Assembly: GCA_016207765.1 (NCBI GenBank)
Contig: JACQOY010000145.1
Span: forward strand, 1-14,995
Origin: Deltaproteobacteria bacterium
GTDB lineage: Bacteria > UBA10199 > SBBF01
Direction: 5' to 3'
DNA: 14,995 nucleotides
Below the pieces are notes generated by a model, which was given only the letters and a program-made list of their open reading frames with translations, was not told where the DNA came from and made no database searches. Shown in pieces: positions 502-13,267 of this stretch; positions within the stretch are counted from its first letter, which is position 1, and every line of letters starts with the position of its first letter. A program made the translations under genes and the position numbers.

Positions 502-1518
502 TCAATGTCCCCCTCCCCCCATCATCTTGTAGCTGTGCAGTACAGCCGGAAAAATCGCATCGAGCGATTCCGTCGTCCCCCGCGATGATCCCGGCAGGTT
601 GACGATGACGGTATTTCCCTTTAGGCCCGCCAGGCCCCGTGAAAGCATGGCGTAGGGGGTTCTTTTTTGGCCGAACTGCCGCATTGCCTCTGCGATACCG
701 GGCGCCTCGCGATCGATCACTTCGCGCGTTGCCTCGACCGTCACGTCTCGCGGCCCAAATCCGGTGCCGCCGGTGGTGACAATGAGGTGGAATCCTTTTT
801 CCGAGAGCGCGAGGAGTTCTTTTTTGATCTGTTCTTTTTCATCCGGCAAGACGACATATTGGATCTCGGCGATTCCCAGTTTTGCCAGCCGTTCCCGGAT
901 GATTTTGCCCGATTTGTCCTCCCGCGTCCCTTTGGCGGTGCCATCCGAGGTGACAACCACCGCGGCCCGAAGATCTTTGGGAATTTTTTCCTGAAAATCC
1001 GATTTGCCGCCGCTCTTTTCGATCAGCCGCGTCGTGATGATTTCCATCTCCTTGTCGATCGGTTTGCACATATCGTAAATCGTGAGCGCCGCAATGGTGA
1101 CGGCGGTGAGCGCCTCCATCTCGACGCCCGTTTTCCAGATGGTCTTGACCGTTGCACGGATACGGATGCCTGACTCCTCCCCTTTGGACCCTAATGGGCT
1201 ACTTCGTTGAGGGGAGGTTGGGTGGGGTAGACCCCCGTTGTCTACCTCCCCCGCCCCCTCCTTACAAAGGAGGGGAGGGTTCTTTTCAAGAAACTCAAAG
1301 TCAATTCTTACCCCATCCAACGGCAGAGGGTGGCAGTAAGGGATCAGCTCCGGCGTCTTTTTGGCGGCCAAGACACCCGCAGTGCGGGCCAGCTCCAGGA
1401 CATCCCCTTTGGGCGTTGTTTTTTCCTTCACCCTTTTGAGGGTCTCCAAGCTCATCGTGATGACGCTTTCCGCCACGGCGGTCCGAAATGTCTCAATTTT
1501 GTTATCGGTGAAAAACAT
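502..1518 (-). CDS. moaC-mogA: Bifunctional MoaC-MogA molybdenum cofactor biosynthesis protein
   Basis: Fusion of two Moco enzymes, 338 residues, cytoplasmic. Residues about 1-175 are MoaC (cyclic pyranopterin monophosphate synthase, working after MoaA): KGDV at 37-40, LIPYCHPL at 58-65, GVEMEALTAV at 131-140, IYDMCK at 147-152 and SGGKS at 169-173. Residues about 180-338 are MogA/MoaB-like (molybdopterin adenylyltransferase): TTGGTGFGPRDVT at 248-260 and LPGSSRG at 308-314. The ATG at 1518 has GGGAGG overlapping the end of moaA, and the moaA stop lies 3 bp upstream, so the two are co-translated. MoaC-MoaB/MogA fusions are known. The oddity is residues 80-117, a proline/glycine-rich insert between two MoaC strands (after IDFEFLEK, before GIRIRATV), encoded by repeat DNA and absent from ordinary MoaC. 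The N-terminus is slightly short compared with E. coli MoaC. Confidence 0.95.
   Translation of the reverse strand: MFFTDNKIETFRTAVAESVITMSLETLKRVKEKTTPKGDVLELARTAGVLAAKKTPELIPYCHPLPLDGVRIDFEFLEKNPPLLCKEGAGEVDNGGLPHPTSPQRSSPLGSKGEESGIRIRATVKTIWKTGVEMEALTAVTIAALTIYDMCKPIDKEMEIITTRLIEKSGGKSDFQEKIPKDLRAAVVVTSDGTAKGTREDKSGKIIRERLAKLGIAEIQYVVLPDEKEQIKKELLALSEKGFHLIVTTGGTGFGPRDVTVEATREVIDREAPGIAEAMRQFGQKRTPYAMLSRGLAGLKGNTVIVNLPGSSRGTTESLDAIFPAVLHSYKMMGGGGH
1172..1281. repeat. Composite intergenic-type repeat inserted in frame in moaC
   Basis: About 110 bp, C/G-skewed. It has CTCCCCTTTG-like and CAAAGGAGGGG-like ends and an inner perfect 7-bp inverted repeat, GGTAGAC (1226-1232) with GTCTACC (1240-1246). 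Its coding-strand translation (NPPLLCKEGAGE..., then QRSSPL) resembles translated dispersed repeats, not MoaC sequence. A 15-bp core at 1196-1210 recurs at 6880-6894 inside the SCO gene, in the same orientation relative to coding and the same frame. Confidence 0.75.
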
Positions 1519-1521
1519 GGT

Positions 1522-2502
1522 TTATCCTCCCAGACTCCGAATCTTCGGAAGTTCCTCGTATTTGTTTTTTTCCAAGAATTCCCCATGCCCCTTCGGCTTG
1601 AGCCAGGCGGTTTCACGGATCAATCGCGCGATTTCTTCATCGGGGGAGCCTTTTCTCATGGGTGTCCGCAGGTCGGTTTCCATGAGTGAAAAAAGGCAGG
1701 GATGGAAACCGCCGGTGGAGGTGAGCCTTAGCCGGGTGCAAGAATCGCAGAACGGTTCGGTCATGGAGGCGATAAATCCAATGCGGCCAAGGCCGCTGTT
1801 CAGGGTGTACGTTTCCGCCACTTGGCCGTTTCGGGGAAGGGGATGCAGGTCAAATTCCTCCCTAATCCATTCGCGGATGAGGGCGATCGGTTTTGTCTGT
1901 TCCAGCTTCCAGCCGGTGCCACAAAGAGGCATGAATTCCAGAAAACGGACCTCCACCGGTTTCTCACGGGTCATTCTGCAAAAGGCGATGACTTCTTCTT
2001 TCGTCAAACTGTCCAAAACGACGACGTTTATTTTCACCTTGAGCCCCGCCTTCAGGGCCTGTCCGATCCCCTCCAAGACAACGGGAAATTCATCTCTTAA
2101 AGTGATGCGTGAAAAGCGTTCCGGATCGAGGCTGTCGAGGCTGACATTCACGCTCGCCAAACCCGCTTCTTTAAGGGGTTGAGCCAGCGGGGCCAAAAGG
2201 GAGCCGTTGGTTGTCAGGCCGAGTTCATTGAGTCCGTCGATATGCGAGAGGGCGGCCACAAGGGCGACTATCTTGTGCCTCAAGAGCGGCTCCCCCCCGG
2301 TCAGACGGATTTTGTTGATTCCCAGCGAGACAAAGATCCGGGCCAAGCGTTCAAACTCGTCGATTCTCAAAACCTCGGCGCGCGGGAGAAGAGAAATTCC
2401 TTCCGGAGGCATGCAGTAGACACAACGAAAATTGCACCGGTCGGTGAGGGAAATACGAAGATAATGAAGAGAACGGCCAAATTGGTCGGTTAGGCGTTCC
2501 AT
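1522..2502 (-). CDS. moaA: GTP 3',8-cyclase MoaA (radical SAM)
   Basis: First step of molybdenum cofactor synthesis: radical SAM rearrangement of GTP to 3',8-cyclo-dihydro-GTP, the substrate of MoaC. 326 residues, the family's usual length. The N-terminal cluster motif is C23-x3-C27-x2-C30 (TDRCNFRCVYC). The C-terminal 4Fe-4S motif is FCDSC followed by Cys 14 residues on (CxxC-x13-C). The protein ends in the conserved Gly-Gly (IRSLGG). The start chosen is the ATG at 2502 (MERLTDQFGR), with AAAGGGG about 6 nt upstream. The reading frame stays open to 2616, but that extension translates the hairpin repeat at 2532-2559 and has no family similarity. First gene of the minus-strand moa operon; expression is probably controlled by the structured leader upstream. 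Confidence 0.97.
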   Translation of the reverse strand: MERLTDQFGRSLHYLRISLTDRCNFRCVYCMPPEGISLLPRAEVLRIDEFERLARIFVSLGINKIRLTGGEPLLRHKIVALVAALSHIDGLNELGLTTNGSLLAPLAQPLKEAGLASVNVSLDSLDPERFSRITLRDEFPVVLEGIGQALKAGLKVKINVVVLDSLTKEEVIAFCRMTREKPVEVRFLEFMPLCGTGWKLEQTKPIALIREWIREEFDLHPLPRNGQVAETYTLNSGLGRIGFIASMTEPFCDSCTRLRLTSTGGFHPCLFSLMETDLRTPMRKGSPDEEIARLIRETAWLKPKGHGEFLEKNKYEELPKIRSLGG

Positions 2503-2531
2503 TGATTCCCCTTTCCAATTTGCGCCGGTTT

Positions 2532-2559
2532 GTAGGGGCGCACGTTTGTGCGCCCCTAC
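2532..2559. repeat. GTAGGGGCG hairpin in the moaA leader
   Basis: Perfect 12-bp stem, 2532-2543 with 2548-2559, loop GTTT. It sits between the putative aptamer and the moaA ribosome binding site. It belongs to the same hairpin class as the copies at 73-99 and 14810-14833. Confidence 0.85.
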
Positions 2560-2561
2560 GT

Positions 2562-2653
2562 CCGGCGGTCGGGAGGCTGTGCCGTTTCCGGCACAGCCCA
2601 TCGGCCGGCTTTTCATCAGTTGACCAAGGAGGATCGCCTGTTAGAAACGCCGG
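2562..2653 (-). ncRNA. Structured moaA leader, candidate Moco riboswitch
   Basis: On the minus strand, CCGGCG (2653-2648) can pair with CGCCGG (2567-2562) to close a roughly 92-nt domain. Inside is a perfect 10-bp hairpin, GGCTGTGCCG and its complement, capped by a GAAA tetraloop (2598-2575), followed by CTCCCGACC. A GC-rich multi-stem domain with a GNRA loop directly ahead of moaA is where the molybdenum cofactor (Moco) RNA motif is found in many proteobacteria. I see the stems and the context; the assignment to that family is inference, since I could not align it to the consensus. Confidence 0.45.
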
Positions 2654-2662
2654 CTCGAGGAA

Positions 2663-2679
2663 TTTGCAACAGTTACAAA
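2663..2679. promoter_or_regulatory. Imperfect palindrome upstream of the moaA leader structure
   Basis: TTTGCAACAGTTACAAA: seven-base arms around a 3-nt centre with one mismatch, 10 bp before the outer stem of the putative aptamer. It could be an operator for a dimeric regulator; it may also be chance in an AT-rich patch. Confidence 0.25.
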
Positions 2680-2693
2680 GGTAGTTGGGGGGG

Positions 2694-2711
2694 AAAAAAG
2701 CCGCTATGCGG
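2694..2711 (-). terminator. Weak hairpin plus T-run downstream of the FNR-like gene
   Basis: On the minus strand CCGC-ATA-GCGG is followed directly by CTTTTTT. The stem is only 4 bp, so it is a weak intrinsic terminator candidate for transcripts leaving the FNR-like gene; it could equally overlap the moaA promoter. Confidence 0.3.
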
Positions 2712-2727
2712 TATATCAGATCGAAAG

Positions 2728-2741
2728 ATGATTCAAATCAT
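2728..2741. promoter_or_regulatory. FNR/DNR-like box upstream of the moa operon
   Basis: ATGATTCAAATCAT contains TGAT-N4-ATCA, the core of the FNR/DNR consensus TTGAT-N4-ATCAA with the outermost base pair changed. If it acts at about -41, moaA transcription would begin near 2693, just ahead of the structured leader. The same core occurs at 3649-3662 beside the FNR-like gene. Confidence 0.45.
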
Positions 2742-2781
2742 ACCAAGCCGATCATTAAATAGACATTAAAGTCGGCTGGTA
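2741..2781. repeat. Inverted repeat with one bulge between fnr-like gene and moaA
   Basis: TACCAAGCCGA (2741-2751) pairs with TCGGCTGGTA (2772-2781) apart from one bulged A; the 20-nt loop holds CATTAAA twice. There is no T-run after it on either strand. Role unknown. Confidence 0.5.
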
Positions 2782-2783
2782 CT

Positions 2784-2836
2784 ATCAGAAACAAAGGGAA
2801 TTCGATGATCAGACGTCATTATATTTTGTTTCTGAT
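2784..2836. repeat. Perfect 12-bp inverted repeat just after the FNR-like gene
   Basis: ATCAGAAACAAA (2784-2795) and TTTGTTTCTGAT (2825-2836) are exact inverted copies with a 29-nt loop, beginning 10 bp past the regulator's stop codon. It may be a 3' mRNA-end hairpin or the ends of a decayed small element. With the items above it accounts for most of the 344-bp gap at 2503-2846, where I see no gene. Confidence 0.6.
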
Positions 2837-2846
2837 TAGTGTCAAA

Positions 2847-3557
2847 TCAATCAGCCAGGTTGGCTGTTTCGGTCAGGCGGGGGAGGTCCAAAAGGGTGAT
2901 TTCACGTCCGGCGACGGTGATGAGATTGTCCTGTTTGAATTCGCTGATCAAGCGGATGACCGATTCTTGCGTGGTGCCGATCAGCTCGGCAATCTCCTCG
3001 CGGGTCAGGGTGATATTCAGTTTGACCCCTTTTTTGGTCTTTTCGCCGTATTTGTTCTTGAAGACCAGAAAAAGTTCTGCGAGGCGTTCCCGGATATTCT
3101 TGTGGACCATGTTGGCGATCTGACGTTCGGCCCTTCCCAGGTCGGTGGCCAAAAGGGTCATGACATTGAAGGCGGTGGTGGGGTGTGAGCCCAGAATTTG
3201 GAAAAAGGTTTTTTTATCGACAAAACAGATCTCCGATTCCTCCAAGGTTTCGGCTGATGAAGTATAGGGTTGCCCGGCCAAAAGACAGCGATACCCCATG
3301 ATATCGCCGGGGCCTGCCAGCCGCACAATCTGCTGATGGCCGTCGGCGTCCATTTTGTAAATTTTAATCTTCCCCGCACTGACGCAATAAAGCCCGTAGG
3401 GCTGATTTCCCTCATAGAAAATGACCTGATGAGACTTGTAATGATTCGTCGTTTTTGCGGAATCGATTTCGTGCAAATGGTCCGCAGAGAGGTCGCAAAA
3501 GACGCTTTTCCCCCGAGTGGAACAGGTTTTGCAATGGATGGGGACCGGTTTGGTCAT
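2847..3557 (-). CDS. FNR-like (CRP/FNR family) regulator with a probable Fe-S cluster
   Basis: 236 residues: a cysteine-bearing N-terminus, a cyclic-nucleotide-binding-like barrel (about 35-125), a dimer helix (about 130-165) and a winged helix-turn-helix (about 180-215). Four cysteines match the FNR oxygen-sensing pattern: C9-x2-C12-x8-C21 near the N-terminus and C111 in EICFVDKKTF, where E. coli FNR has Cys122. This suggests a 4Fe-4S oxygen or NO sensor. The recognition helix TTQESVIRLISEF keeps the Glu and Arg that FNR uses to read TGAT half-sites. The start chosen is the ATG at 3557, with AAGG 9 nt upstream; the frame is open to an ATG at 3599, but that one has no ribosome binding site. 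It diverges from the short CRP-like gene across an FNR-like box and probably controls nir, nar and moa genes (inference). Confidence 0.9.
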   Translation of the reverse strand: MTKPVPIHCKTCSTRGKSVFCDLSADHLHEIDSAKTTNHYKSHQVIFYEGNQPYGLYCVSAGKIKIYKMDADGHQQIVRLAGPGDIMGYRCLLAGQPYTSSAETLEESEICFVDKKTFFQILGSHPTTAFNVMTLLATDLGRAERQIANMVHKNIRERLAELFLVFKNKYGEKTKKGVKLNITLTREEIAELIGTTQESVIRLISEFKQDNLITVAGREITLLDLPRLTETANLAD

Positions 3558-3643
3558 TGTTTTCAACCTTAAAATGAATGGCCCTGTTCCGTCAACCATT
3601 CGATTAACTCATGGTGAAGGAGTCCGTCGGGGGATAATCGGGG

Positions 3644-3667
3644 TCAAACTGATCCAGATCAGCTTGA
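3644..3667. promoter_or_regulatory. 24-bp palindrome holding an FNR/DNR-like box
   Basis: Near-perfect inverted repeat (one mismatch per arm) centred on CTGATCCAGATCAG at 3649-3662, which is TGAT-N4-ATCA. It lies in the 171-bp gap between the divergent FNR-like gene and the short CRP-like gene, so it could serve autoregulation and the nir-side operon together. No good -10 lies at the ideal spacing on either side. Confidence 0.6.
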
Positions 3668-3728
3668 AAACTGACGCCGCTCATTTTTGTTCTCAGAAGG
3701 ATCAAGTACACAGAAAGTGGGAGTATGT

Positions 3729-4091
3729 ATGCAATCATCCCATTGTTGTCGACCCAGTCCCAAACAGGAGAAGGTGTATAGCCGTCTTCACGAGTCGCTG
3801 GACCGTCTGATCCGGGAGGGAAATGCGGTTCATTACCGCAAAGGGCAGGTCATTTTCTACGAAGGACATCACCCCTGCGGTTTTTACCTCTTGAAAGAAG
3901 GAAGGGTCAGTTTGAAGGAATCAACAGCCGGATCCAGGCCGAAAATGCACCCGACGGAGGACAAGCTTTTGGGGTTGGTACATCTCCTCTCTGAAACGCC
4001 GTACTGTTCCACCTGCACGGCGGAAGAAGATGTGGACATTATTTTCGTTCCCAAGACGATTGTTCTCCAATATCTGGATGAAAACAAGTAA
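3729..4091 (+). CDS. Short CRP/FNR-like sensor-domain protein without DNA-binding domain
   Basis: 120 residues forming only the N-terminal and barrel part of a CRP/FNR-family protein: KGQVIFYEGHHPCGFYLLKEGRVSL (about 38-62) matches the QVIFYEG strand region of the divergent full-length regulator, and the protein ends (LQYLDENK) where the dimer helix would start. No helix-turn-helix is present, and none is encoded downstream, because a separate gene with its own strong ribosome binding site begins 10 bp later. Cysteines at 6, 7, 50, 93 and 96 could bind metal or a cluster. The ATG at 3729 has GGGAG upstream; the frame also opens at a TTG at 3687. It may be a truncated duplicate of the neighbour, a decoy or heterodimer partner, or an independent ligand-binding protein. 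Confidence 0.75.
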   Translation: MQSSHCCRPSPKQEKVYSRLHESLDRLIREGNAVHYRKGQVIFYEGHHPCGFYLLKEGRVSLKESTAGSRPKMHPTEDKLLGLVHLLSETPYCSTCTAEEDVDIIFVPKTIVLQYLDENK

Positions 4092-4101
4092 AGGAGGGTC
4101 C

Positions 4102-4479
4102 ATGCAAATCGGGATTCCTTTTGCGCGGTTCGGCATGCTTACCGCCGGCGAGGAAAACACAAAAGTCCGTCTTTTGTACTTCAAGATTTTAAATGCCCTG
4201 TTCGTTTCGTTTTTCGGCGGTAGACCGCATGTGGGGGCGGTTACCGCGGTTCTGAAGCCGAATTCGCGGGAGTATGCAAAGACGGTGAAACTGCCGGGGC
4301 ACCGTGACGATGTGGTCACGCGCAAGGCCGGTTCGATCTTGTCCCAAAGAATTCCTGGCCCGGTGGTGGCGACGGCGGGGATCCACTACGACAACGCCAC
4401 CCCTCTGCAGATCCGCGCCATCGTCAAAAACAGCGAACTCTTGAGCCGGCAATTGCTGAGCGTTCTACGGAAGGGTTAA
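4102..4479 (+). CDS. LpdD-like (prenylated-flavin chaperone-like) small protein
   Basis: 125 residues, no signal peptide. The motifs GGRPHVGAV (39-47), LPGHRDD (64-70) and GIHYDNAT (93-100) resemble the small subunit D of gallate/UbiD-type decarboxylases (LpdD), proposed to help handle prenylated FMN. This rests on recalled family motifs, not a search. Translation starts at 4102 with an excellent AAAGGAGG 5 nt away; the frame is open from 4030 inside the preceding gene, but that part is a shadow. No UbiD or UbiX homologue lies in the window, so a decarboxylase role is unsupported here. Placed between a CRP-like gene and nirK, it may have another ligand-handling or redox role (inference). Confidence 0.7.
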   Translation: MQIGIPFARFGMLTAGEENTKVRLLYFKILNALFVSFFGGRPHVGAVTAVLKPNSREYAKTVKLPGHRDDVVTRKAGSILSQRIPGPVVATAGIHYDNATPLQIRAIVKNSELLSRQLLSVLRKG

Positions 4480-4505
4480 TCCTAGCCTAAAATTCCAAGA
4501 AAACA

Positions 4506-4511
4506 TATAAT
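4506..4511 (+). promoter_or_regulatory. Candidate -10 element ahead of nirK
   Basis: A perfect TATAAT lies 33 bp before the nirK ATG. The position 17 bp upstream (TAGCCT) is not a -35 box, which would suit an activator-dependent promoter; no FNR-type palindrome is seen at the expected place. Confidence 0.4.
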
Positions 4512-4544
4512 CACCCCTTTTCTGTCACGATCAAGGAGGATCCT

Positions 4545-6020
4545 ATGACAAGAATGGGTTTGTCTGTTTTTTTGTCTTTGGGAATTTTTGCTTCGGCGTG
4601 TCAACAACCGATGCCGGATACCGGCGGATCGGCCAAGGGAGATTTTGGCTCCCCCAGAGGCGATCCGATTGAGGCGGTTCTGACACAGGCGCCGGAATTG
4701 CCGCCACCGACCAAGAGGGATTATCCCGCAAAAGTGGTGGTTCATCTTGAGGTAAAAGAGGTTGTTCTTCCGATTGCCGATGGGGTCGACTACACCTTTT
4801 GGACGTTTGGCGGCCAGGTGCCGGGTAAATTCATTCGTGTCCGCCAGGGAGATACGGTCGAACTCCATCTGCAAAACCATCCCGACAACAAGATGCCGCA
4901 CAATATTGATTTGCATGCGGTAACCGGCCCAGGGGGAGGCGCCACCAGCACCTTTACGGCGCCGGGGCACGAATCGCAATTTACCTTCAAGGCCTTAAAT
5001 CAGGGGCTTTTTGTCTACCACTGCGCCACCGCCCCAGTGGGGATGCATATTGCCAACGGGATGTACGGCCTGATTTTTGTCGAGCCGCCTGAGGGATTGC
5101 CCCCCGTCGACCACGAATACTATGTCATGCAGGGTGATTTTTACACGGTTGGAAAATACCGGGCAAAAGGGCTTCAACCCTTCGATATGCAGAAGGCCAT
5201 CGAGGAAAACGCGACTTACGTGGTTTTTAACGGCTCCGAAGATTCGCTGGTGGGGGAGAAGGCGCTAAAGGCCAAGGTTGGGGAAACCATCCGTCTTTTT
5301 ATCGGCAACGGCGGACCCAATTTGGTCAGCAGTTTTCATGTCATCGGCGAGATTTTCGACAGGGTCTATCAGGAAGGGGGGACACGATACCAGGAAAATG
5401 TCCAGACAACGCTTGTCCCCGCCGGCGGCTCCGCGATTGTGGAATACAAGATCGAAGTTCCGGGCACTTACATTCTGGTTGATCATTCGATCTTTCGGGC
5501 ATTCAACAAAGGGGCGCTGGGGATGATGAAGGTGGAGGGAGAAGAGCGCAAAGATATTTATTCGGGCAAGGAGGTCGATTCGGATTATCTCGCCGACAAG
5601 GCGGCGCCGTCGCAGGCCGTTGCCAAGGCGGCGGAAAAAATGAAGGAAGGGGAGTTGACGGGGGACCTGCAGATTGCCGCCGGAAAAACGCTTTTTCAGG
5701 GGACCTGTTCCACTTGTCATCAGGCAAATGGCGAGGGCATTGAAGGAGTTTTTCCACCGTTGGCGAAATCGGATTTTCTCATGGCGGACAAGGGACGTTC
5801 GATCGAAATAGTTCTGAACGGCCTTGAGGGGTCGGTCGTTGTAAACGGCAAGCCCTATCATTCCGTCATGCCTCCGATGAGCCAGTTGAATGATGATGAG
5901 ATTGCGAACATTCTTACCTATGTGAGAAACTCATGGGGAAACCAGGGAGAGGTTGTCAGCCCGGCCGAGGTGCAGGCCGTTCGTGAAAAAACGGCGCGGC
6001 CGCCGGGGGCGGCGAAGTAG
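4545..6020 (+). CDS. nirK: Copper nitrite reductase NirK, AniA-like, with C-terminal cytochrome c domain
   Basis: Reduces nitrite to nitric oxide outside the cytoplasmic membrane. 491 residues. A signal peptide ends in the lipobox FASAC (Cys19), so it is probably membrane-tethered. Two cupredoxin domains (about 60-185 and 190-335) carry the full copper set: type 1 ligands H119, C160, H168, M173; type 2 ligands H124, H159, H314; catalytic D122 and H265. The segment [18 protein letters not shown] is typical of the AniA class. Residues about 375-465 are a haem c domain (C388-x2-C391-H392, axial Met 442 or 445), which would feed electrons straight to the type 1 copper; such fusions are known, for example in Ralstonia pickettii. 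The ribosome binding site AAGGAGG is 6 nt before the ATG. nirV follows after 3 bp. Expression is probably anaerobic. Confidence 0.97.
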
Positions 6021-6023
6021 GCG

Positions 6024-6809
6024 ATGAAAAGGGTTGTTTTTTTCATTGCGATGATCGGTGTCTGTATCGTCGCGGAAGCGGAAGTATCCCCGCCCAACAT
6101 GTCAAGGGTCGGGCCGGGGCCATACCGGCCCCTTTATCCCCCCACGGACAAGGAAAAGGAAATCGCGGTGGACGCGTTTTTCCTCGACCGCCGTCCGGTG
6201 ACCAACACCGAGTTTCTGGCCTTCGTCAGGGAAAATGCCAAATGGCGGCGGGACAAGATTTCGGGGCTATTCGCCGATGAACGGTATCTTTCTCATTGGA
6301 CCGGTTCTCTGGATTTGGGACCGGGTGCCGATGCCGAACAGCCGGTGACTTTTGTCAGCTGGTTTGCCGCCAAGGCCTATTGTGAGTCGCGCGGTGGCCG
6401 CCTGCCTTACGAAGCTGAATGGGAACTGGCCGCCGCCGCAAATGAATCAAGCGCCGATGCGAAAGACGATCCGGTCTGGCAGAGGCGGATACTCGACTGG
6501 TATTCAAAACCGGCGGGTAGACCGTTGGGCAAGGTGGGGCGGTCTGTTCCCAACTATTGGGGTGTTTTTGATTTGCACGGATTGATCTGGGAATGGGTGT
6601 ACGACTACAATGCCGCGCTTGTCGGCGGGGATAATCGCGAACAGGGAGGAACCGAAAAACTCCGTTTTTGCGGGACGGGGGCGCTCAAGGCTTCCGATAA
6701 AAACAAATATGCCGATTTCATGAGGATTGCTTTTCGGAGTTCATTGGAGGCCCGATACACGGTTGGGCACTTGGGTTTTCGTTGCGCGCGGGATTTGGAG
6801 GACAAATGA
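6024..6809 (+). CDS. nirV: NirV-like SUMF1/FGE-fold protein
   Basis: 261 residues with an N-terminal signal peptide (hydrophobic 3-17, AEA-type end), so it acts outside the cytoplasm. Residues about 45-258 form a formylglycine-generating-enzyme (SUMF1) fold: RRPVTNTEFLAFV, PVTFVSWFAAKAYCESRGGRLPYEAEWELAAAA, LIWEWVYDY and a terminal LGFRCARD. Genes of this family beside nirK are called nirV; their role is not settled, with help in nitrite reductase maturation proposed. Only the last of the two active-site cysteines of true FGE is kept (C254); the other position falls in AFRSSLEARY, so formylglycine synthesis is unlikely. The ATG lies 3 bp after the nirK stop with only a weak ribosome binding site, pointing to translational coupling. 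The sco gene overlaps its stop (ATGA). Confidence 0.85.
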   Translation: MKRVVFFIAMIGVCIVAEAEVSPPNMSRVGPGPYRPLYPPTDKEKEIAVDAFFLDRRPVTNTEFLAFVRENAKWRRDKISGLFADERYLSHWTGSLDLGPGADAEQPVTFVSWFAAKAYCESRGGRLPYEAEWELAAAANESSADAKDDPVWQRRILDWYSKPAGRPLGKVGRSVPNYWGVFDLHGLIWEWVYDYNAALVGGDNREQGGTEKLRFCGTGALKASDKNKYADFMRIAFRSSLEARYTVGHLGFRCARDLEDK

Positions 6810-7462
6810 CAAAAAAGTTGTTTTTTCTGTTGATGTTCGCAGTAGGGGCGCAATTTACCCCATTAAGAGGGGCCGCTCTTCAACGAAGTAGCCCCCTTGC
6901 GGGGTATGCGGTTGCGCCCACGATTTCGGGTGCCATGCCCCAAGGAGGGGCCACTTCGTGGAATGGCGCCCCTGCAAGCATCTACGCAGGGGGATGGGAA
7001 CTGACTGATCAGGATGGCACGAAAACACCGCTGGATGTTTTTAAGGGAAGTCCGGTTATTATCACGATGTTTTATTCTTCCTGTCCGTATAGTTGTCCTC
7101 TCCTGATCGAAAGCATCAAGAATAAAATCGAAAAGAAGACGTCCCCATCGGTCAGAAAAAACCTGCGAGTTCTCCTCATTACATTCGATCCCACCCGTGA
7201 CACACCGGAAAAATTGAAAAAACTTGCCTCTGAAAAATCGATCGATCTCACCCGCTGGAAACTGCTCACGGCCAAGGAAGACGTCGTCCGCGATATTGCC
7301 GCTGTTCTTCAAGTGAAGTATCGCCCGCTTCCCGGCGGCGATTTCAGTCATTCCTCCATTATCGCCCTGCTCAATCCAGATGGGGTCATTACCGCCCGTG
7401 TGGACGGGTTAAACCAGCCCTTTGAGCCGATCGTCGAAAAACTGGTTATTACCGGAAGGTAA
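6806..7462 (+). CDS. SCO1/SenC family copper chaperone
   Basis: 218 residues, thioredoxin-like fold, exported. It binds copper through C93-P-Y-S-C97 and H182 (DFSHSS) and probably delivers it to, or reduces thiols of, a copper enzyme; beside nirK and nirV the likely client is NirK (inference). Other family marks are FYSSCPYSCP, LLITFDPTRDTPEKL and the NPDG strand. The ATG at 6806 overlaps the nirV stop (ATGA) and has GGAGG upstream. The hydrophobic segment LFFLLMFAV (5-13) is the signal core. The next 45 or so residues are not SCO sequence: they are encoded by a repeat with inverted GTAGGGGCGC / GCGCCCCTGC ends, giving an unusual proline/alanine/glycine-rich linker before the domain starts at about residue 60. 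Confidence 0.92.
   Translation: MTKKLFFLLMFAVGAQFTPLRGAALQRSSPLAGYAVAPTISGAMPQGGATSWNGAPASIYAGGWELTDQDGTKTPLDVFKGSPVIITMFYSSCPYSCPLLIESIKNKIEKKTSPSVRKNLRVLLITFDPTRDTPEKLKKLASEKSIDLTRWKLLTAKEDVVRDIAAVLQVKYRPLPGGDFSHSSIIALLNPDGVITARVDGLNQPFEPIVEKLVITGR
6842..6975. repeat. 134-bp MITE-like repeat inside the sco gene
   Basis: The terminal inverted repeats GTAGGGGCGC (6842-6851) and GCGCCCCTGC (6966-6975) match in 9 of 10 positions. It carries TCAACGAAGTAGCCC (6880-6894), identical to a 15-bp stretch in the moaC insertion and translated in the same frame. It encodes residues about 13-57 of SCO. Confidence 0.65.
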
Positions 7463-7490
7463 GGCTTTAATTGCGGTAAAAATTATTATA

Positions 7491-7519
7491 TTGGCAATCA
7501 CCGCCGTTTCCCCTATTAA
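7491..7519 (+). promoter_or_regulatory. Sigma-70-like promoter for the Dgk1/phytol-kinase-like gene
   Basis: TTGGCA (7491-7496), 17-bp spacer, TATTAA (7514-7519). Transcription would begin near 7526, about 8 nt before the ATG at 7534, which has no Shine-Dalgarno; the mRNA could be nearly leaderless. Confidence 0.5.
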
Positions 7520-7533
7520 GCATACTATCACCC

Positions 7534-8586
7534 ATGACACGCACACAGACCATTTCCGTTGATTTTCGTCAGGCAAGCCTGTCGATGCGGGAACACTTGG
7601 ACCGGCTGAGGGAGGATGTTTCCGCCCTTCACTTGAGTTCCATCGATCTGTTTCATAACCTGAAGCAAAAGCTGTTGAGTTCGTGGAAAAACCGGGAACA
7701 GGTCATCAGGGAATACAAGCTTTCCCTGCAGGCGATGCCCAAGGAATTGAGAAGGCGTAGCCTTGTCTCCAAGTTATCGAGGGACCTCGAAGATTTTGAG
7801 GCCGATATGAAGCGCTATCTGTCCGAGATCAGGGAATCATCCTTTCAGGATTTTCGAAAATCTTTTCATCGTCGAATAGACGAAATGGCCGATCGTGTGG
7901 CCGGTCTGGAAAGGCATCCGCTTGTCCAGAAATTCTTAAGGGGCGAAGCAGTTCTGGCAAGCCGGAAAAACATCCAATGGAGACGAAAACTTGCCCATGC
8001 CTTCAACGGAATTTTTTTCATCTACCTGTTTGTTTATTCCGGCCTGCCTAAGGCGATCATTTGGACTTTGGCCGGAGGATTCATTGTATGGGCCCTTTCG
8101 CTGGAAACGGCCCGGCATATCAACCCCAAAATTAATCGATGGGTTTGCCGTTGGTTTGCGCCGATCATGCGGGAGCGGGAGAAAACAAGCATCAATTCGG
8201 CCATCTTTTATATTGTTTCGATGGCGGTTGTTTACTTCACCTGTCCGATCGAGGTAAGCCAGTTGACCATGCTTTTTATCGCCATTGGGGACCCCGTGGC
8301 GGGGATTGTGGGGGTTACCTGGGGCAAAACAAAAATCACCTCGCATGTGAGTGTGGAAGGGTCTTTGGCCTGCTTTGCCGCATGCGCCGGTCTGGCGGCC
8401 ATTTGCGCGGGGTTTCTCTTTGAGAAAACCCTCCCTTTGCCATCCCTTGTCCTCTTTTCGGGTTTGAGCGGAATTGTCGGGGCCTTTGCCGAGGCCTCTT
8501 TCAAAAGGCTCGACGATAATCTTGTCATGCCCCTCCTGTCTGCCCCCGCCCTGTGGGGTTTGATGAAATTTTTTTCCCTTCTTTAA
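7534..8586 (+). CDS. Dolichol/phytol kinase or CTP:diacylglycerol kinase-like membrane protein
   Basis: 350 residues. Residues 1-140 are charged and helical (probable coiled coil, cytoplasmic). Residues about 150-350 form a multi-helix membrane domain of the Dgk1 / dolichol kinase (SEC59) / phytol kinase kind: WRRKLAHAFNG (149-159), AIGDPVAGIVGVTWGKTK (250-267), SVEGSLACF (273-281) and AEASFKRLDDNLVMPLLSA (319-337). Family members phosphorylate a lipid alcohol using CTP (or another nucleotide) at the membrane; the substrate here is unknown, an isoprenoid alcohol or diacylglycerol being likely. The long N-terminal coiled coil is not part of the core family. It follows sco by 71 bp with its own candidate promoter. 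Its last 62 bp overlap the amidohydrolase gene on the other strand. Confidence 0.8.
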   Translation: MTRTQTISVDFRQASLSMREHLDRLREDVSALHLSSIDLFHNLKQKLLSSWKNREQVIREYKLSLQAMPKELRRRSLVSKLSRDLEDFEADMKRYLSEIRESSFQDFRKSFHRRIDEMADRVAGLERHPLVQKFLRGEAVLASRKNIQWRRKLAHAFNGIFFIYLFVYSGLPKAIIWTLAGGFIVWALSLETARHINPKINRWVCRWFAPIMREREKTSINSAIFYIVSMAVVYFTCPIEVSQLTMLFIAIGDPVAGIVGVTWGKTKITSHVSVEGSLACFAACAGLAAICAGFLFEKTLPLPSLVLFSGLSGIVGAFAEASFKRLDDNLVMPLLSAPALWGLMKFFSLL

Positions 8587-9796
8587 AGTAAACCCGTTCC
8601 GCATTGTCTCGGCTGATTTTTTGGGCAAGGTCGGCAGGGAGCTGGGAGAGAAAGTTCCAGCTGGCACTTGCATCGTTTTTTAGCTGTCCCTGCAGTTCCG
8701 ATTTGGCGGAAAACTGGTCGGTTCCGATCATAAACCGGTCGGGGAACTCCTCAAGCAGTTTTTTCCATTCGGGACGGATCGTCCCCTTCTCATCCACCGC
8801 GCGGGCCGGATGACCGGGTCGTCCCTCCTTCTGTTCCGGTATGGCAATGGCCATATAAAGGTTGGAATGTGTATTCAACAGCCGGCGCAAAAGATCGACA
8901 ACCGACCCGCTGACGCCCGGCTCCCCTCTCCCAATATGTTGCCAGACAATTTTTGCGCTCCGGTTATGGGTCAGAAGCCTTTCAAACGCCGTGATATTCT
9001 CTTTTATCGTTGCAGGATTCGCCCTGTTTTGTTTCAGCCTTTCGGGAAGCGGCATGTCGGCCTCAATGGCCGTCATGTGCAAATCGATCGGGATATTTGA
9101 ACGGGCGGCGATGTCGGCCAAAAGGAGAAAAAGAGGGTGATCGGGCGAGACCTCTTCGAAAGGGTGCCCCTCCCCCAGGGAAAAGTGAAGGGCGGTCATC
9201 TCGCCAAAAACCTTGATGCCCAGCCCGGCCAGACGGTTGGCCTCGGCTGTAAATTGCGCCGTGACTTCATCGGTAACCGTTTTGTCTTTGTACTCCTGAA
9301 TTGTCGAGTTGAGAGTACTCCCCCCCAGCCCCACGTAGAGACGACCCGGATATTTTTTGGCGATCCGGATGAGCTCAGAGGCCAAGGAGCTGTCCCTGTT
9401 TTCCGGCGACATCGGCGGTGGCATGATGATGGACTTTTCGACCCCATACTGGTCCATGCGGGAGATCAGGCTTGCCGCGGCACCATCGTAATCAGTCTTT
9501 CCCTGTCTCGTTTCCGAAGCGCCCGAACGACCCCCGGGTCTTTTTCGAAAAGATCCGTCCGGCAGACCCCGCCGCGGCGGTCCATAAGAAAAAAGGTCCG
9601 CAAACTGTGGAACCTCACCGCCGCCGGCCCGCATGGAAGGAGGAACTCCCCGCCCCAGAAGATGGGTGTGGACATCGATATAACCCTTCGAGGCCGAGGC
9701 GGATAAACTGCGGGAAGCCCCGGGCCAAATCGACGCCGCCAAGACGGCAATTGACATAACGATAACGACGATGGCAATTTTTCTTCGCATAACCAT
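8525..9796 (-). CDS. Exported amidohydrolase (amidohydrolase-2 / TIM-barrel metal hydrolase)
   Basis: 423 residues. A signal peptide or anchor (IAIVVIVMSIAVLAASIW, 7-24) precedes a TIM-barrel hydrolase. Metal-binding candidates are H43-T-H45 after the first strand (YIDVHTH), H240 (IDLHMT), H287 (VWQHIG) and D360 (IGTDQF); NAERVY (398-403) is the usual family C-terminal signature. The family includes decarboxylases and hydrolases of cyclic amides or lactones; the substrate is unknown. Residues about 52-105 are a basic, glycine-rich stretch unusual for the fold. There is no clear ribosome binding site for the ATG at 9796; a second ATG lies two codons on. Its start is only 28 bp from that of the divergent radical SAM gene, and its tail overlaps the preceding kinase-like gene by 62 bp. 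Confidence 0.85.
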   Translation of the reverse strand: MVMRRKIAIVVIVMSIAVLAASIWPGASRSLSASASKGYIDVHTHLLGRGVPPSMRAGGGEVPQFADLFSYGPPRRGLPDGSFRKRPGGRSGASETRQGKTDYDGAAASLISRMDQYGVEKSIIMPPPMSPENRDSSLASELIRIAKKYPGRLYVGLGGSTLNSTIQEYKDKTVTDEVTAQFTAEANRLAGLGIKVFGEMTALHFSLGEGHPFEEVSPDHPLFLLLADIAARSNIPIDLHMTAIEADMPLPERLKQNRANPATIKENITAFERLLTHNRSAKIVWQHIGRGEPGVSGSVVDLLRRLLNTHSNLYMAIAIPEQKEGRPGHPARAVDEKGTIRPEWKKLLEEFPDRFMIGTDQFSAKSELQGQLKNDASASWNFLSQLPADLAQKISRDNAERVYFKEGKKISSNPTGRGQTGGA

Positions 9797-11705: not shown

Positions 11706-13267
11706 AATTTTTTGCCTTTTCGGCCTTTTTCCTGCTGTTGATTGCCGTCTACGGGGGGCGATCCGCCCTGGGGGGGACGAATGCCGAAACGATTCCCCCC
11801 CAGGTCGTCGGCACCTTTTATCCCGCCGACAAAACCGAACTCCGTAAAACAGTCGATTCATTGATCAACGAGGCCCCCAACGCCTCTTTTCAGGGGGAAT
11901 TAACGGCGGCCCTTGTGCCGCACGCCGGTTACGCCTGGTCGGGGAAGACCGCCGCCCACATCTACCGCCTTCTCAAGGGGCGCCGGTACGACACGGTTAT
12001 TATTGTGGGCACCGGTCACCGCGTCTACGTCAAAGGGGCGGCAACTGTCGCTGCCGGTTCCTTTTCGACCCCGCTGGGAGAGGTTCCAATTGATGAAGAA
12101 GCGGTTAAAAAACTGATGGGGTTTGCCCCCCCAGGGCAGGTTGCCCCCCCAGGGCGGGTCGCCCCCCTTGTTCAAAATCTTCCCGAGGCCTACAAGGGAG
12201 AACATTCTGTCGAAGTCCAGCTCCCTTTTCTGCAGGTTGTTTTGGGAAATTTCAAGGTGGTTCCCCTTCTGATGAACAATGTCGATACAAAGGTTGCCTC
12301 TCAAATCGGCTCTGCACTGGCCCAACTCATGCAATCGGGCAAGACGCTTCTCCTTGTCTCCTCCGATCTGTCCCATTATCCCGATAAGGAGACGGCGAGG
12401 ATTGTCGATGAAACATCCCTTATGGCCCTTCAACGGTCTTACGACGACCCGGAATATTTCCTTGAGGCCGATCGTCTGCTCATGGCGAAGGGGCGGGGGA
12501 AGAATCTTGTCGTCACCTTCTGCGGCGAGGCGGGTCTTTTGGCCGCGCTTTATGCCATGAAGGAATTGGGCGGCACCGGCCCTGCCGGCGCTCAAAGCCG
12601 TCTGCTTGCCTATACAAATTCCGGGGAGCTTGCGGGGGGCGAACCGGGCAGAGCCGTCGGCTATTCTGCCCTCATCTGGACGCGCGGCGGATTACCACCC
12701 CCCAAAAGAGGGTTGAATGAAATGCAGAGAAAAACGCTGTTGGCGTTGGCCCGGGAAACGTTGACCCGGGCCCTGATCAAGGGAGAAAAACCGGAAAGCG
12801 CCCTCTGGAAAGATCCCGCGTTCAATCTGCCGTCAGCTGTTTTTGTGACCTTGCGCAAGAAAGGCGTCCCGCGAAGTTCATCCCTGCGCGGTTGCATCGG
12901 TTCACTCGTTCCGAACCTCCCTTTGGCCGAGGCCGTTGAAATTTTCGCGCTTAAAAGCGCCCTGGAGGATTCCCGTTTCAGCCCCGTTACGCCCGATGAA
13001 CTGAACGGGATCGGGATTGAAATTTCGATCTTGAGCCCTTTCCGAAAAATATCTTCCGCCTCGGAGGTAAAACCGGGACAGGGGGTGATGGTCGGGCAGG
13101 GGAGGCACACAGGTCTTTTTCTGCCTCAAGTTTGGGAGGATATTCCCGATAAGAAGAATTTTCTTGTGGAGCTTTGCCGGCAAAAAGCCGGACTTCCGGA
13201 GGATTGCTGGAAAGACCCTCGCACCGAAATCCGGGTCTTTGATGCCGAGGCGTTTGAGGAGGAATAG
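11702..13267 (+). CDS. Exported Memo-AMMECR1 fusion (AmmeMemoRadiSam proteins B and A)
   Basis: 521 residues. A signal peptide (about 1-24, no lipobox Cys) leads into a Memo-like domain (about 30-327) and an AMMECR1 domain (about 338-518). Memo marks: PHAGYAWSG with H74, GTGH at H106, GEHSVEVQLPFL at 166-177, SSDLSHY with H225, and CGEAGLL with C274; the set resembles the metal-binding site of human MEMO1, a nonhaem extradiol-dioxygenase relative. AMMECR1 mark: SLRGCIGSL (394-402). These two domains, with a radical SAM enzyme, make up the conserved but poorly understood AmmeMemoRadiSam system. The ATG overlaps the stop of the upstream radical SAM gene, so the two are co-translated. Odd points: the predicted export of a system usually taken as cytoplasmic, and an 18-nt tandem repeat giving APPGQVAPPGRVAP (142-155). 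Confidence 0.9.
   Translation: MKFFAFSAFFLLLIAVYGGRSALGGTNAETIPPQVVGTFYPADKTELRKTVDSLINEAPNASFQGELTAALVPHAGYAWSGKTAAHIYRLLKGRRYDTVIIVGTGHRVYVKGAATVAAGSFSTPLGEVPIDEEAVKKLMGFAPPGQVAPPGRVAPLVQNLPEAYKGEHSVEVQLPFLQVVLGNFKVVPLLMNNVDTKVASQIGSALAQLMQSGKTLLLVSSDLSHYPDKETARIVDETSLMALQRSYDDPEYFLEADRLLMAKGRGKNLVVTFCGEAGLLAALYAMKELGGTGPAGAQSRLLAYTNSGELAGGEPGRAVGYSALIWTRGGLPPPKRGLNEMQRKTLLALARETLTRALIKGEKPESALWKDPAFNLPSAVFVTLRKKGVPRSSSLRGCIGSLVPNLPLAEAVEIFALKSALEDSRFSPVTPDELNGIGIEISILSPFRKISSASEVKPGQGVMVGQGRHTGLFLPQVWEDIPDKKNFLVELCRQKAGLPEDCWKDPRTEIRVFDAEAFEEE
12125..12167 (+). repeat. 18-nt tandem repeat inside the Memo domain
   Basis: Units 12125-12142 and 12143-12160 differ at two positions and are followed by a partial third copy (GCCCCCC). 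Each unit encodes APPG-Q/R-V, extending a surface loop in frame. Confidence 0.8.

Follow-up and report, generated by a model that had tools for sequence, protein, structure and literature searches.

A short sequence module in the tips of palindromic repeats lying in frame within conserved genes of a deltaproteobacterial genome

Repeat insertions in moaC-mogA and a SCO gene

The stretch of DNA analysed here (the window, 14,995 nucleotides) belongs to a metagenome-derived assembly of 1.89 Mb in 256 contigs, 84% complete (G000). On its reverse strand, positions 502-1518 encode a moaC-mogA fusion of 338 amino acids, in which Pfam recognises MoaC at residues 5-171 (profile positions 5-136) and MoCF_biosynth at residues 186-327. 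An inserted repeat occupies 1172-1281 of the same strand in frame and gives the gene a net 111 nt over its counterpart in the sister genome G001. It consists of a palindromic repeat, host C, carrying a shorter unit, module M. The left arm of host C (CTCCCCTCCTTTGTAAGGAGGGG...GGTAGA, 1241-1277, reverse strand) aligned with at least about 28 other host C loci. The right arm (1174-1231, reverse strand) holds in its tip, at T^TAC, a 21-nt form of M (CAACGAAGTAGCCCATTAGGG, 1189-1209, reverse strand) delimited by alignment of the copies; at 23 other distinct places the tip is empty (CTCCCCTTACAAAGGGG). The predicted fold of the whole insert has a z-score of -2.3.

The MoaC proteins of G001 and of a further sister genome, G002, align on both sides of the site and lack the insert; G001 reads FLE-N-GIR where G000 has 37 extra residues. 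Among the 119 MoaC homologues listed, out of 7947 matched, the loop measures 26 residues in 100, as against 63 residues in G000, while 15 fall outside the loop-length pattern and one has a loop of 46 residues; QRSS, part of the peptide discussed below, was found in none of the 119. In a relative from another source (P0004, 74% identity) the insert site reads MAPLLCKET, which looks like a remnant of host C or an independent host C insertion. An AlphaFold2 model of MoaC-MogA keeps the strands at residues 69-77 and 117-127, with pLDDT below 50 at residues 81-113, which places a low-confidence loop where the first-pass annotation had put the insertion, between two MoaC strands; low confidence is expected there anyway, because the non-query rows of the alignment lack the segment. 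In the solved-structure search for the fusion, the two alignments listed are both to the MogA part.

The second insertion lies in a gene of the SCO1/SenC family (6806-7462, forward strand; Pfam SCO1-SenC). A composite palindrome of host A/E type (6842-6975, forward strand, GTAG...CTGC, 134 nt; fold z -3.9) carries two copies of M in opposite orientation. The former (CAACGAAGTAGCCCCCTTGCGGGG, 6881-6904, forward strand), located by the shared 15-mer and by alignment of copies, is read as QRSSPLAG, and the complement of the latter (CCACGAAGTGGCCCCTCCTTGGGG, 6938-6961, reverse strand), located by pattern match, is read as PQGGATSW. The insertion does stand between signal core and domain, as had been proposed, but the linker of the homologues is variable and offers no clean empty site. 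The closest homologue (P0122, 81% identity) is without the composite palindrome, but its linker differs, so that the exact empty site is not fixed. This comparison covered the N-termini of 10 of the 46 other homologues, eight of which were aligned; solved-structure alignments for SCO, and for the DnaG protein described below, do not extend across the insert. Another SCO homologue, P0130, bears an N-terminal extension (PLTLALSHKGRG) that may be a different repeat read through or the product of a wrong start.

Both insertions contain the 15-mer TCAACGAAGTAGCCC on the coding strand of their gene, at 1196-1210 (reverse strand) in MoaC-MogA and 6880-6894 (forward strand) in SCO. The matches are exact and both genes translate it as QRSSPL, just as the first-pass annotation had it, and the bounds that it gave for the two inserts fit as well. 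A third copy, inverted and with two mismatches, lies at 6948-6962 (reverse strand). Shuffles of the window contained on average 0.39 matches at up to three mismatches, and three matches were reached in one of 200. Tabulated genome-wide, the 15-mer is present in G000 as 11 exact copies and two with one mismatch, the reversed pattern used as a control occurs nowhere in G000, and the exact 15-mer was found in none of the 59 other genomes searched. What had been taken for one common element is indeed dispersed, but its common part is a short module set in two differing host repeats, C in MoaC and A/E in SCO.

Module M, its hosts and their distribution

Module M, which the 15-mer opens, can be written C(A/C/G)ACGAAGT(A/G)G(C/T)CCC...GGGG or GGGA. 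It measures 21-25 nt, mostly 24 nt, exceptions including 22 nt at L142, L143 and L154 and 25 nt at L136. A degenerate pattern of 13 bases matched 34 times in G000, compared with no match for the reversed pattern; with two host C copies (L005, L010) and one variant (L051) the total is 37. M is part of larger repeats: palindromic hosts of four or more types hold it in their tips, and for three of these types (C, A and E) empty tips were found in G000. Host copy numbers are lower bounds, 40 of 58 and 40 of 65 candidates having been scored, and in the tip counts places with equal flanks were merged into one distinct place.

The right-hand tip of host C (CTCCCCT^TACAAAGGGG) is filled with M at two distinct places, one of them in MoaC, beside the 23 empty ones. 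For host A (GCCGCTCTT^TATGCG) four distinct places are empty and eight filled, one of the latter in SCO. For host E (GTAGGGGCGTATTG^CAATACGCCCCTAC), the empty L039 differs from filled copies that have the very same arms by exactly 24 nt at the symmetry centre. An empty host E palindrome without the module (GTAGGGGCGCACGTTTGTGCGCCCCTAC) was matched in the window at 2532-2559, and the empty form recurs in genome G015. In host B (L136, L141, L152), M sits at T^T within a CTGGC/GCCAG stem; an empty host B was sought in G000 and not found.

In 17 of 36 copies M is bordered by complementary flanks 8 bp or longer, compared with 0.36% of 5000 random positions at the same loci. The other 19 copies escape the test, in part because the stretch that it compares leaves out the host A stem, and L138, whose end could not be set, was omitted. 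In the predicted DNA fold of a filled host E the arms are paired and M is in the loop (z -7.1). M alone (z -0.4 and -1.2) folds little better than shuffles, as do the tips of hosts C and A when M fills them (z -1.0 and -1.6); the empty tips reach z -3.7 and -2.4.

Three further features of the repeats were observed. At the host C loci L016-L043 the arms are nearly constant and the short centre differs in most (those of L033, L038 and L040 are similar), a variation that copying as a single unit does not predict. In L001, L003, L008, L009, L011 and L051 a second nested unit (CCCATAAAGAGGGACTGCTTACGCTG) occupies the other hairpin of host A. Finally, a Memo-AMMECR1 fusion gene in the window contains two tandem CCCCCCCAGGGC units (12123-12164), read as PPGQVAPPGRVAPL and complementary to 11753-11776, possibly a further repeat-derived coding segment.

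A wider M pattern was detected in five of 60 genomes, G000 included, with 12 copies in G008 and one each in G001, G004 and G044. The G001 copy was considered as a case of vertical inheritance and rejected as such, given that its contig (L170, G001 C54) is 98.7% identical to that of L157 (G000 C188) over 2.1 kb, compared with 84% in the moaC-mogA region (best block 650 nt); from this sequence identity, the copy may be cross-binned, and recent transfer would be the other explanation. Hosts C and E are more widely spread than M (18 and 22 of the 60 genomes, respectively), and core copies of host C number 41 in G017, 53 in G029 and 41 in G042, compared with 31 in G000. We also asked whether M is an ancient element of the whole collection: a 22-nt pattern found two loci in 84,980 species, from which G000 itself may have been left out, compared with about four estimated by chance, and the idea was dropped. 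One of the two loci, L161 (Omnitrophota), has a plausible M context when judged by eye. A profile search for Y1_Tnp (PF01797) was positive in 48 of the 60 genomes, among them G008 with a single one; none was detected in the 84%-complete G000 assembly, nor in G042.

Genes carrying the repeats and their reading frames

M is found inside nine recognised ORFs of G000, namely MoaC-MogA, SCO and seven more: MurI (glutamate racemase, L141), a UbiE-type methyltransferase (L135), MurF (L144), CarA (L067), a sigma-54 activator (L057), DnaG primase (L131) and an M15-type peptidase (L154). Alignment to solved structures shows a 50-residue addition in MurI, placed between residues 170 and 171 of 1b73, a 12-residue addition in MurF relative to 1gg4, and no more than a partial gap in UbiE. 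Three of the elements, those in DnaG, the sigma-54 activator and the peptidase, come after the main profile-matched domains, so that their internal position rests largely on continuity of the ORF. The CarA locus (G000 C226, about 6650-9690) is a single 694-aa ORF with a CarA front and a CheA back, and its contig is probably chimeric. The remaining 26 of the 37 M copies were left out of the intragenic count, some because their long open frames place them close to a likely start or ahead of it (for example L132, L136, L142, L143, L149, L157, L158, L160 and L069) and others because they fall in frames to which no name could be given (L138, L139, L145, L146 and L153).

Furthermore, host C without M is present in frame within five ORFs: AguA (agmatine deiminase), GshB (glutathione synthase), RsmB, the GTPase Der, where it stands between the two G domains, and a XerC/D recombinase. 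Ten ORFs span host C, of which L019, L025, L029 and L040 were left out as unidentified or apparently preceding the start. Together with the insert-free MoaC of both sister genomes, these additional in-frame copies within conserved genes bear out the suggestion that the repeats are tolerated as open linkers.

The 11 intragenic copies of M (two each in SCO and the peptidase) use four of the six frames. They are read as QRSSP or PRSGP in four cases (QRSSP in MoaC, SCO and MurI, PRSGP in one copy), as HEVVP in two, and on the complement as GTTSW, GATSW or GATSS in three and EGPLRG in two. The MoaC insert is free of stops in two of six frames, one per strand, and the SCO insert in one; in both, the sole open frame on the coding strand is the one that yields QRSSP. 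The same holds for the 150-nt MurI insert when bounded by the PDB alignment, but its 139-nt repeat-only stretch has one other coding-strand frame open, so that the MurI frame is not strictly forced, the result depending on the repeat edge chosen.

The first-pass annotation had offered selection for the QRSSPL peptide as one explanation of the shared frame, and here its proposal is not borne out. Because the other coding-strand frames of MoaC and SCO hold stops, the common QRSSP is a matter of survivorship, and the peptide shared by these two genes requires no selection on the peptide. That MoaC, SCO and MurI all have QRSSP, and that the other open frame of the MurI repeat-only stretch went unused, speaks for a useful linker; with other peptides in eight of 11 intragenic copies, and with QRSS missing from the listed MoaC homologues, we consider selection of this linker very improbable, and the stops in the alternative frames, with four of six frames in use, remove frame sharing as evidence for it. 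The varied frames of the intragenic copies largely match what had been named as a sign that the shared frame is chance; in MoaC and SCO themselves, however, the frame is forced.

Origin of the insertions and relation to known repeats

Short palindromic repeats of several families (A, B, C, E and others) are present in G000, a number of these families have M in their tips, and repeats with and without M are in frame inside conserved genes. In the account that we prefer, palindromes and modules would have spread as small non-autonomous mobile elements, probably moving as single-stranded hairpins with an enzyme acting in trans, and insertion would be heedless of frame. The intragenic copies visible today would be those whose length and frame leave the ORF open at a tolerant site, the common QRSSPL frame reflecting this survivorship. 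We put the probability of this whole account at roughly three in four. A hairpin-acting enzyme working on single strands in trans is suggested because the insertions sit at hairpin tips; the mechanism is one that we infer, because a Y1 transposase was found in most of the genomes but not in G000. Movement of M itself we likewise infer, neither target duplication nor strain polymorphism nor transposition having been observed.

How M reached its tips admits of more than one reading. It might be a hyperparasite, a mobile element of some 24 bp aimed at the single-stranded tips of other mobile palindromes (at T^TA or the symmetry centre) and carried with them into genes, where its usual 21 or 24 nt, both divisible by three, would keep in-frame hosts open; we regard this specific version as rather doubtful. 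Alternatively, M might be immobile alone and simply a common loop sequence, the palindromes swapping tips through recombination, gene conversion or template switching. The palindromic arms adjoining almost half of the copies, the mosaic nature of host arms (for example A/E in SCO) and the lack of a transposase in the incomplete G000 assembly would suit such an exchange, whereas the start of M is the same and its length nearly the same in all hosts, and hosts E, A, B and C, compared by eye, share little arm sequence beside M although conversion needs homology flanking it. Tip exchange is accordingly a possible but still unlikely origin. An artefact of assembly or binning in a metagenome of 256 contigs deserves mention on account of the seemingly chimeric CarA locus and of three of the 13 first-found copies, which lie less than 60 nt from contig ends (L007, L010, L011). 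Yet the copies in MoaC, SCO, MurI and MurF are more than 1 kb inside their contigs, homologous protein sequence continues beyond the insert in those genes, and the host-C-like peptide recurs at the same MoaC site in a relative from another source; we consider an artefact scarcely credible.

The in-frame palindromes of G000 add another lineage, with cases in housekeeping genes, to a phenomenon known chiefly from Rickettsia. Empty and filled pairs from the same genome allow a 24-nt insertion in the tip of a palindrome to be located exactly, and the question of how units too short for ordinary transposon ends move is made testable. The case also cautions that a peptide common to unrelated genes can come from stop codons closing the other frames.

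Cyanobacteria have small dispersed repeats (SDR; Elhai 2008), reportedly mobile units about 21-27 nt long that in part sit within other repeats. M falls in this size class and is found in at least four hosts, a likeness of kind. No description of the repeats treated here turned up in a search of open-licence papers.

In Rickettsia, palindromic elements (RPEs) of about 150 bp are described as extra in-frame segments of unrelated metabolic genes (PMC10969869). The G000 palindromes resemble them, by description only, in being in frame within unrelated genes (MoaC, MurI, MurF, UbiE, CarA and others), and differ in the 21-25 nt module found in the tips of several differing palindromes and in the lineage, whose nearest named MoaC homologue among those listed is from a Deltaproteobacteria MAG (79% identity). 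Passages of PMC3733652 describe GTAG/CGTC-tagged REPs as short palindromes with inverted pairs and intragenic copies, some within other palindromes; insertion in varied proteins is said there to argue against functional constraints, although an effect in repair genes was suspected. G000 likewise has inverted pairs and intragenic copies, and its hosts A and E carry a terminal GTAG, but in the predicted fold the GTAG of host E is paired with CTAC and is not an unpaired tag, and the RAYT (Y1 transposase) of these systems and of REPINs was not found in the assembly. According to the same passages, unlinked target palindromes were found in T. roseum and not in A. variabilis or H. neapolitanus; G000 differs from the latter two in having empty hosts. 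With REPINs, as described in part of PMC3116915, host C shares a pair of conserved arms in inverted orientation, the sequence between them differing in most copies. The G000 repeats are kin to RPEs and intragenic REPs, and differ as a variant in that one short module occupies the tips of several host families, some hosts being empty and others filled within a single genome.
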